A stretch of DNA of 20,396 nucleotides from a virus. Numbering within the stretch: position 1 is the first letter of the stretch; each line of letters begins with the position of its first letter. The notes under the pieces are model-generated. The model was not told where the DNA came from. It saw only the letters and a list, made by a program, of their open reading frames with translations, and ran no database searches. Made by a program: the position numbers and the translations under genes. Location of the stretch: IMG/VR virus record IMGVR_UViG_3300012685_000016, positions 1 to 20,396 of that record; one strand, written 5' to 3'. Of the stretch, positions 17,145 through 19,006 are shown piece by piece.

Positions 17145-17402
17145 GTGGACGGCGGCCTGCTGGGGTCTCTGATCGCCTCCGCCATCGTGCTGCTCGGCGG
17201 CGGCACGAAGCTGGAGATAAACCGAGTTTCCCGGCGAGACAAGAAGATCGAAGTCCTTGAGGCCATCGTCGATGCGCAGAAGCAGACGATCGCGAAGCAG
17301 GACCGGCAGCTCGATCGGTTCGAAATCACAGCGGAGATCCAGGACAAGTTCTTCTCTCAACTGCCGCAGCCCTTACAGCGCAATGATCCGAGGCGATCAT
17401 GA
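17145..17402 (+). CDS. single-TM coiled-coil membrane protein in lysis region
   Basis: An 85-residue protein with one N-terminal hydrophobic segment (about residues 4-20, 'LLGSLIASAIVLLGGG') followed by a positively charged stretch and a coiled coil (about 27-65). The start is the GTG one base after the previous stop, with GGAG 6 bases upstream. The overlapping ATG at 17143 gives only nine codons. One TM plus coiled coil before holin and endolysin genes could be a spanin-like or accessory lysis protein, or a holin regulator. Nothing in the sequence decides this. It overlaps the next gene by ATGA. Confidence 0.65.
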   Translation: MDGGLLGSLIASAIVLLGGGTKLEINRVSRRDKKIEVLEAIVDAQKQTIAKQDRQLDRFEITAEIQDKFFSQLPQPLQRNDPRRS

Positions 17403-17587
17403 AGTGGATTCGGCGACGCACCACCGACGAAGCACTCCATGAGCAGCTCGCCCTCGCGCAGGAGAAGTTGCGGGAAACGAAAAGCCGAGACCCGAAGGTG
17501 AACAGGATCGCCGACAGACTGCGCAAGCACTACGAGGACAACCAGTTCGCGACCCGGATCGTCCAGCACCTCGCGGAGGGCCGATGA
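17399..17587 (+). CDS. small helical hypothetical protein
   Basis: A 62-residue, strongly charged, all-helical protein with the C-terminal pattern 'VNRIADRLRKHYEDNQFATR'. Similar short proteins ending in a leucine/asparagine-containing helix are frequent near actinophage lysis genes, as I recall them. There is no TM segment or signal peptide. It is linked to both neighbours by ATGA overlaps, so co-translation with the membrane proteins on either side is likely. Function is unknown. Confidence 0.65.
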   Translation: MKWIRRRTTDEALHEQLALAQEKLRETKSRDPKVNRIADRLRKHYEDNQFATRIVQHLAEGR

Positions 17588-17913
17588 CACCCGTGGCCCC
17601 GGCGTGGCTGATCATCTTGTCTGGAGTGCTCCTCGCTGTCGACACGCTCGCCTGCGTCGCGTTCATCGTCATCTACACCCGCCGTGCGAAGTGGTGGCGC
17701 AACGACGTCGGCCGAAACCTCGTCACCATGTCCGCCTCGCTGGGAGGACTGCTCGGGTACAGCGCTTTGGCGTTCCTGTGGCCGGGCATTCCGGGGCGGG
17801 TCATCATCCGCACCGTCCTGTTCCTGTCCCTCACCGCCGCTGTCATCTGGCGGGTCGTGGTGTTCCACAGGATCGGCCGGGAGATCGATCGAAAAAAGGA
17901 AGATCAGGGATAG
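17584..17913 (+). CDS. three-TM membrane protein, candidate holin
   Basis: A 109-residue integral membrane protein with hydrophobic segments at about residues 8-30 ('LIILSGVLLAVDTLACVAF'), 50-66 and 74-91, joined by basic loops ('YTRRAKWWRNDVGRN'), and a charged C-terminus ending 'RKKEDQG'. It lies directly upstream of the endolysin gene, so it could be a holin or a holin-associated protein. A second, more typical two-TM holin lies just after the endolysin. It is linked to the 17399 gene by ATGA. A short gap of two bases separates it from the endolysin start. Confidence 0.7.
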   Translation: MTPVAPAWLIILSGVLLAVDTLACVAFIVIYTRRAKWWRNDVGRNLVTMSASLGGLLGYSALAFLWPGIPGRVIIRTVLFLSLTAAVIWRVVVFHRIGREIDRKKEDQG

Positions 17914-17915
17914 CC

Positions 17916-18752
17916 ATGCGCACGATGTACGACGCGGTGACCGCGTCTAACATCCCCACGACCGCCGCCATGGTCGCCGGGTACGTCGACCAGATCAAGC
18001 TTCCACCCTGGACGGCCGCCGACTGGGCTCGCTTCCCCAACGCCGTCAAGGTCGAGATCGTCAAGAAGGCCACCTCGGACTGGGGTGACGTCCTCGACGT
18101 CGAGCCGGGCGACGCCACACCCGCCGAGGCGCCTGGCTGGGTGGCAATGCGTCGCCGTTCCGGCGCCGACCCCACTGTCTACTGCAACTCCTCGACGTGG
18201 CCCCTGGTGCGCGCGGCGTTCCAGAACCAAGGCGTCCCGGAGCCGCACTACTGGATCGCCAAGTACGACGGCGTGGCCACCATCCCCGCCGGCTGGTCCG
18301 CGCTCGGCTGTGTCGCGAAGCAGTACGGCGGCGACGTCCCGGGCGGCTACGACCTCAGCTGTGTCGCCGACTTGTGGCCCGGCGTCGACTCCGGCCAGCC
18401 AGCCCCTGCTCCAACCCCCGCCAATCCGTCAGGAGTGGAACTCATGGAACGCAAGATCGTCCCCGCCAGCCCGTCGACTACTTCCGTCCGGCTGCTGCTC
18501 TCCGGCTCGCCCGGCGCGGCCATCGTCATCCGACCGAAGATCGGCCCGGACGGCTTGGCGAAGAACCCCGTCTACATCGGCAACATCTTCGCGTGGGGCA
18601 ACGACAAGTCCGGCGTCGGCCACAACCCGAAGACCGACGGCACCAAGGACTTCCGACTGGAATCCCACCGCCGGATCGAACTCCCGGGCGCCGTGTGGGC
18701 CGACCTCGAGTACTCGTGCAGCGAAGACTTCGAACTCGACATCGTCGGCTGA
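17916..18752 (+). CDS. endolysin: GH25-like muramidase plus C-terminal wall-binding domain
   Basis: Degrades host peptidoglycan at the end of infection. The product is 278 residues from ATG 17916, preceded by AGGGA with a 5-base spacer. A longer in-frame reading from 17604 would overlap the membrane protein gene and is rejected. The N-terminal domain (about 1-160) shows a GH25-like pattern: 'MYDAVTASNIP' near the start, the acidic pair Asp61-x-Glu63 in 'VLDVEPGDATP', then 'PTVYCNSSTWP', 'HYWIAKYDGV' and 'GYDLSCV'. A Pro/Ala linker (about 163-172) leads to a beta-rich C-terminal domain (about 177-278) likely to bind the wall. No signal peptide is evident, so a holin is needed. An internal start precedes the C-terminal domain. 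Confidence 0.9.
   Translation: MRTMYDAVTASNIPTTAAMVAGYVDQIKLPPWTAADWARFPNAVKVEIVKKATSDWGDVLDVEPGDATPAEAPGWVAMRRRSGADPTVYCNSSTWPLVRAAFQNQGVPEPHYWIAKYDGVATIPAGWSALGCVAKQYGGDVPGGYDLSCVADLWPGVDSGQPAPAPTPANPSGVELMERKIVPASPSTTSVRLLLSGSPGAAIVIRPKIGPDGLAKNPVYIGNIFAWGNDKSGVGHNPKTDGTKDFRLESHRRIELPGAVWADLEYSCSEDFELDIVG
18431..18446 (+). promoter_or_regulatory. internal Shine-Dalgarno and ATG within the endolysin gene
   Basis: AGGAG at 18431-18435 is followed 8 bases later by an in-frame ATG (18444) coding for Met177, exactly between the linker and the C-terminal domain. Its match and spacing are at least as good as those of the main start. Spacing and placement suggest use, but a chance match is possible because GGA and GAG codons occur often. 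Confidence 0.55.
18444..18752 (+). CDS. possible separately translated endolysin wall-binding domain
   Basis: Starting at the internal ATG would give a 102-residue protein beginning MERKIVPASPS and containing the whole C-terminal beta domain without the muramidase. In several clostridial and enterococcal phage endolysins an internal start yields free binding domains that associate with the full-length enzyme; the same is proposed here by analogy. The alternative is that the ATG is just an internal Met codon of the full-length enzyme. Confidence 0.45.
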   Translation: MERKIVPASPSTTSVRLLLSGSPGAAIVIRPKIGPDGLAKNPVYIGNIFAWGNDKSGVGHNPKTDGTKDFRLESHRRIELPGAVWADLEYSCSEDFELDIVG

Positions 18753-18766
18753 GAAAGGACCAGGCC

Positions 18767-19006
18767 ATGAGCGACCCCATTCCGCCGCTGCCCCTGCCGC
18801 GGCACTCCCTCGACACTCCCGCCCCGTGGTACGCCCGCTACTCGAAGGCGCTCGCCGCGCTCCTCGGCACCCTCACGCCCGGTGCGGTGCTCGCGCTGCT
18901 GGGGCTGTTCGGGGTGCACGTGGACTCCACCGTCGCCATGGCGATCGTGACGGTCCTCGGGTTCCTCTCCACCATCCTCGCGCCGGCCAACGCCGCGAAG
19001 GAGTAG
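18767..19006 (+). CDS. holin (two-TM)
   Basis: A 79-residue protein with a Pro-rich cytoplasmic N-terminus ('DPIPPLPLPRHSLD'), two hydrophobic segments (about residues 28-49 and 55-73) separated by a short turn ('HVDST'), and a brief Ala/Lys/Glu end. Size, topology and position 14 bases after the endolysin gene are those of actinophage holins. The gene starts at ATG 18767 preceded by GAAAGGA. A long open reading through 18197-19006 in the same frame is a shadow of the endolysin gene and is not used. It would form membrane lesions that release the signal-less endolysin. Confidence 0.8.
   Translation: MSDPIPPLPLPRHSLDTPAPWYARYSKALAALLGTLTPGAVLALLGLFGVHVDSTVAMAIVTVLGFLSTILAPANAAKE

Follow-up and report, generated by a model that had tools for sequence, protein, structure and literature searches.

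Lysin gene and lysis cassette

The window, i.e. the whole stretch of DNA analysed, is an IMG/VR virus record of 20 396 nucleotides (IMGVR_UViG_3300012685_000016). The lysin gene lies in a lysis cassette, with a Phage_holin_2 gene directly upstream, whose stop codon is 2 nt before the lysin start at 17916, and a gene for a holin-like protein directly downstream. The features are as follows.

17145..17402, + strand: small membrane protein of 85 amino acids (aa) with a weak match to Rz-like spanins (PHROG 739, E 3e-3; one hydrophobic segment)
17584..17913, + strand: holin, Phage_holin_2 (Pfam PF23778, E 6e-21; hydrophobic segments)
17916..18752, + strand: lysin gene, full-length product of 278 aa (open reading frame; catalytic domain conserved in 70+ homologues)
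17916..18389, + strand: GH25-like catalytic domain, residues 1-158, with Asp6, Asp61, Glu63 and Asp146 (AlphaFold pLDDT mostly >90, VIA, alignment)
18390..18434, + strand: disordered linker, Pro/Ala-rich (sequence; pLDDT <50 at residues 162-172)
18431..18435, + strand: internal Shine-Dalgarno (SD) element AGGAG (read from the sequence; nucleotide-level conservation in homologues)
18444..18446, + strand: internal start codon ATG, Met177 (read from the sequence; VE[IL]M kept in homologues with the window's module)
18444..18752, + strand: C-terminal beta domain of 102 aa, predicted also as a free protein (all-beta in AlphaFold; the module recurs behind other enzymes)
18767..19006, + strand: second small holin-like membrane protein (two hydrophobic segments; weak PHROG holin match, E 8e-4)

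The 85-residue protein, a putative spanin-like protein, is encoded upstream of the holin gene (17145-17402).

An earlier, sequence-only reading had noted AGGAG at 18431-18435, an eight-base spacer and an in-frame ATG at 18444. Direct reading confirmed all three: the sequence from about 18423 is AATCCGTCAGGAGTGGAACTCATGGAACGC and the 8 nt spacer is TGGAACTC. The ATG is codon 177, in frame with the start at 17916, and opens an internal reading frame of 102 aa, the length previously given for the C-terminal piece. The Met177 start ranked best among the 12 in-frame internal starts of the gene (3.0; the next-best internal start scored 11.4 and the start at 17916 scored -1.1) in an initiation-energy estimate that was home-made and simplified, is not a published RBS calculator and serves only to rank sites.

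Domain structure and fold

The AlphaFold2 prediction depended on its input: 12 sequences gave a pLDDT of 47, and a 40-row alignment gave a usable model with a mean pLDDT of 87.7. In this model the catalytic domain extends to about residue 158, and residues 162-172 form the linker that precedes an all-beta domain. Since the low-confidence linker is followed by the first C-terminal strand (residues 176-182), Met177 is predicted to sit at the domain border, in agreement with the earlier placement of the internal start at the junction of the linker and the beta domain.

The first domain was compared with known structures using VIA, giving a Z score of 14.1 for 1sfs and of 11.7-12.0 over about 150 residues for the GH25 phage lysins phiSM101, Ply40, Cpl-1 and CTP1L. 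Asp6, Asp61, Glu63 and Asp146 are near-invariant in the homologues of the 40-row alignment; they would correspond to the positions expected for GH25 catalysis, with roles carried over from known GH25 enzymes. The assignment to a GH25-like enzyme, already made from the sequence, is thus supported by the fold and by these four residues. The lysin is named GH25-like because its score against Pfam PF01183 (14.3 bits, E 0.05) does not reach the gathering cut-off of 27. When the whole model was run against the PDB with Foldseek, nothing reached E<=0.001, which leaves the VIA comparison as the basis of the fold assignment; PDB sequence searches gave chance-level matches only. The beta domain matched no Pfam family and showed a weak likeness to GOLD domains, CBM32 and lectin sandwiches (VIA Z 6-7.4 only).

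Relatives and hosts

Viral contigs contained 28 loci related to the lysin. Many more relatives were found in genomes, mostly of Amycolatopsis, with one to three copies in 26 of 80 genomes. The nearest relatives are Amycolatopsis chromosomal genes and viral contigs, which bears out the proposed actinophage origin. Annotated phage records held no relative of the full lysin or of either C-terminal module family tested; with the catalytic domain as query they gave nothing beyond two partial matches with E>1.

Two chromosomal copies were scanned for their neighbourhoods. Their neighbours are host genes (a solute-binding/VWA protein, a glyoxalase and a GntR-aminotransferase regulator; an FtsX permease and a LacI regulator), so these two copies look domesticated rather than prophage-borne. 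L035:2501-3301, L043:2501-3319 and other Amycolatopsis loci are examples of lysin-like genes that carry this internal start and lie among host genes in the chromosome. The Amycolatopsis chromosomal GH25-like protein is apparently non-secreted.

Conservation of the internal start

Start sites were counted in 76 homologues, which lie in viral contigs and in genomes related to Amycolatopsis; these homologues are not mutually independent. The catalytic domain is conserved across the 76, and the C-terminal module varies. A site was defined as GGAG, GAGG or AGGA 4-10 nt upstream of a start codon, gene counts being based on ATG and GTG. By this rule an in-frame SD and start were present at the junction in 35/39 homologues with the window's module and in 32/37 with other modules. 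The frequency was 3-5% in control windows of the catalytic domain (8/156 and 4/147), and 0-3% per frame for out-of-frame sites at the junction itself (0/39 and 1/37). The junctions examined represent 23 C-terminal clusters with no between-cluster BLASTP similarity at E 1e-3, and at least one member of each cluster carries an SD and a start codon at the junction. The sequence-only reading had proposed comparing this element among homologous lysin genes; its conservation held, including in homologues with unrelated C-terminal modules.

Most homologues outside the rule show a near-miss (GGAAGTGGAGCTCATG, GGAAGAAGGTTTCGCCATG); in L028 the junction lacks an internal start. This rule, strict on tetramer and spacing, replaced SD duplex energy as the sole yardstick, because GGGTGG before Met78 also scores well on energy. 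A weak SD accompanies the retained methionine (motif TELMER) in about nine chromosomal relatives of the classic-GH25 type (L122-L130), so that conservation of the methionine alone proves little. In these relatives either the residue matters to some degree for the protein or the start site has decayed.

Selection on the nucleotides

Codon usage was analysed in 30 representatives with catalytic domains less than 75% identical. GGA accounts for 19/20 glycine codons at positions -6 to -2 relative to the internal start and for 46/668 at other places (p 4e-20). Because the junction start had been picked as the strongest in its window, the control windows were given the same selection rule; GGA then made up 7/83 (p 5e-14 against the junction). 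The median SD energy was -9.5 at the junction and -3.3 in the control windows (p 7e-15). Just upstream of the internal start GC3 is 0.60, down from 0.90, and the gene shows less secondary structure at the junction than in its other parts (z +1.7, p 2e-9). The SD falls in two codon registers, one giving Gly-Gly (L020, L022, L023; QGGN in L020) and the other Glu-Glu/Asp (L019, L017 and others; QEDD in L019). Synonymous resampling with the amino acids fixed gave a weaker signal (Fisher p 6e-4), as Glu-Glu or Glu-Asp in GC-rich DNA gives rise to GAGGAG in any case; it is the glycine codons that carry the stronger synonymous signal. Together, the nucleotide evidence supports an internal initiation site that is functional and selected.

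Module exchange and split genes

The enzyme types of L108, L110, L112 and L139 come from Pfam, which was also run on L111, and those of L113, L136, L140 and L141 were read by eye. The window's module also occurs behind classic GH25 domains (L108, L110, L113), behind Amidase_2 (L112, L136) and, in L111, behind an N-terminal domain that matched no Pfam family and was read as Rv2525c-like. Most of these genes have an SD and ATG at the junction. In L113 the methionine has shifted by one codon and an SD remains, and in the Amidase-type lysin at L136:766-1806 the SD and the methionine codon (now CTC) are both lost. A second, unrelated module of the DPNRPGP type is found behind Rv2525c-like (L139, L140) and GH25-like (L141) enzymes, each time with a strong SD and start at the junction (CAGGAGGATGAAATG, GGAGGAGGAAGACGTG and CGGAGGACGACGACATG).

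A third module is unfused in two phages (L013 and L115), where the enzyme ends at GAAGTGAGGTAG and the module reading frame begins 2-5 nt later. The junction DNA is near-identical (CGGCTCGACGAAGAAGTGAGGTAG) behind two different GH25-type enzymes (L013:2501-3384, L115:2355-3348). This is a natural split form, in which the separate module gene begins where the fused genes have their internal start. It is possible, though somewhat less likely than not, that the unit exchanged among these lysins is a C-terminal module that carries along its own ribosome-binding site, as a portable, independently translated cistron, either fused behind different enzymes or alone, with the free module under selection.

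At L076:1501-2300 the enzyme and the module no longer share a frame after a frame change, and the SD and ATG of the module are intact in another frame. This may be a pseudogene, a sequencing error or a real split; as either of the first two is possible, the locus was left out of the proof.

Comparison with known systems

Internal starts are established in phage endolysins such as CTP1L, Lys170 and Ms6 LysA (Pinto 2022), as the sequence-only reading had stated for some clostridial and enterococcal phages, and are predicted in about half of the endolysin genes screened (PMC9430671). The clostridial lysins CTP1L and CS74L (PMC4777826) resemble the window lysin in their GH25-type catalytic domain (5a6s, Z 11.7 over 152 residues), in a linker SD such as GGAGG and in an internal start whose codon encodes the first C-terminal-domain residue; they differ in their low-GC Firmicutes hosts and in the C-terminal domain itself. 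The free C-terminal domain of CTP1L was proven by mass spectrometry and a crystal structure (PMC4777826), whereas that of the window lysin is predicted. Lys170, LysIME-EF1 and LysP7951 likewise have one catalytic domain and one wall-binding domain, with the internal start lying between the two (PMC9430671, PMC7098653), but their enzyme and binding domains are of other kinds, and their heteromers have been shown, that of the window lysin being hypothetical.

Among actinophages, the mycobacteriophage Ms6 lysin (LysA / Lysin241) has a conserved in-frame internal SD with GTG (PMC3111421), and internal SD elements have been tabulated for mycobacteriophage LysA proteins (PMC3111421). In Ms6 and Pollywog the start lies between two catalytic domains (PMC9430671, PMC3111421), and the short Ms6 product keeps a catalytic domain, whereas the short product of the window gene is predicted to be the C-terminal module alone. 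L139, L110 and L108 (Rv2525c-like and classic GH25) share module families and the junction start with the window lysin but have different catalytic domains.

Two-polypeptide reading and alternatives

The window gene is very probably a two-polypeptide endolysin gene, encoding the full lysin and a predicted free C-terminal domain. Ribosomes would start at 17916, giving the full lysin with its GH25-like, muramidase-type domain, disordered linker and beta domain, and would also start at the internal SD and ATG (18431-18446), giving the 102-residue C-terminal domain alone. The free domain would accumulate and bind the same wall ligand as the tail domain of the full-length enzyme. It might then multimerize with the full enzyme and raise its avidity, as in Lys170, LysIME-EF1, LysP7951 and CTP1L; alternatively, it might occupy wall sites and so tune lysis. 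The initiation site is supported by sequence comparison, and the precedents suggest the short product, wall binding and heteromer.

Both polypeptides might be made with no complex between them. The free domain would then act by itself, perhaps setting the time of lysis or covering wall ligand once released. Not every known case forms a complex (LysJavan488, PMC9430671), and L013 and L115 encode a C-terminal module in a gene of its own. Complexes have, however, been reported for lysins that pair a single catalytic domain with a single wall-binding domain and start internally between the two (PMC9430671), and we consider independent action of the free domain somewhat unlikely.

Other explanations deny the internal start a present role. 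The enzyme and module may once have been adjacent genes whose fusion left the start site behind, as the two split arrangements (L013, L115), with the module starting at the same place, would allow. A relic would decay at synonymous positions, however, and the site is intact in homologues less than 75% identical in the catalytic domain (GGA in 19/20 against a background of 7%) and recurs with 23 dissimilar modules, making a functionless relic very improbable. Intragenic SD-like sequences have been suggested to slow down ribosomes, and the purine-rich element, lying at the domain border, could mark a translational pause that aids co-translational folding. Yet at the junction 30/48 SD-like elements have an in-frame ATG or GTG 4-13 nt behind them, whereas in other parts of these genes 21/125 do (p 1e-8; with ATG only, 21/48 and 4/125), so that initiation is favoured over a mere pause; the site is also unfolded, and in L013 and L115 it serves a real gene start. 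A pause is accordingly a very improbable explanation. It is still harder to believe that Met177 is kept for protein structure, as part of the beta domain's first strand, with AGGAG there by coincidence. The retention of TELMER with a weak SD in L122-L130 would fit, but other modules, unrelated in sequence, still carry the SD and start, L136 has lost methionine and SD together, and in L113 the methionine has moved and an SD is present.

The probable two-polypeptide gene of the window adds to the known internally started endolysins. Its lysin family, for which annotated phage records gave no convincing relative, belongs to high-GC Pseudonocardiales phages and brings these into the group of endolysins that have an internal start and probably two chains. 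The literature compared gave no example in which a start site is kept across so many unrelated C-terminal modules and split versions occur as well. This suggests a general rule, by which replacement of the module leaves the internal start in place and selection acts to keep the free C-terminal chain. Recoding of the linker during cloning or codon optimization of such lysins could lose the second chain. The chromosomal Amycolatopsis copies with the same site offer a culturable system in which to seek the short protein.
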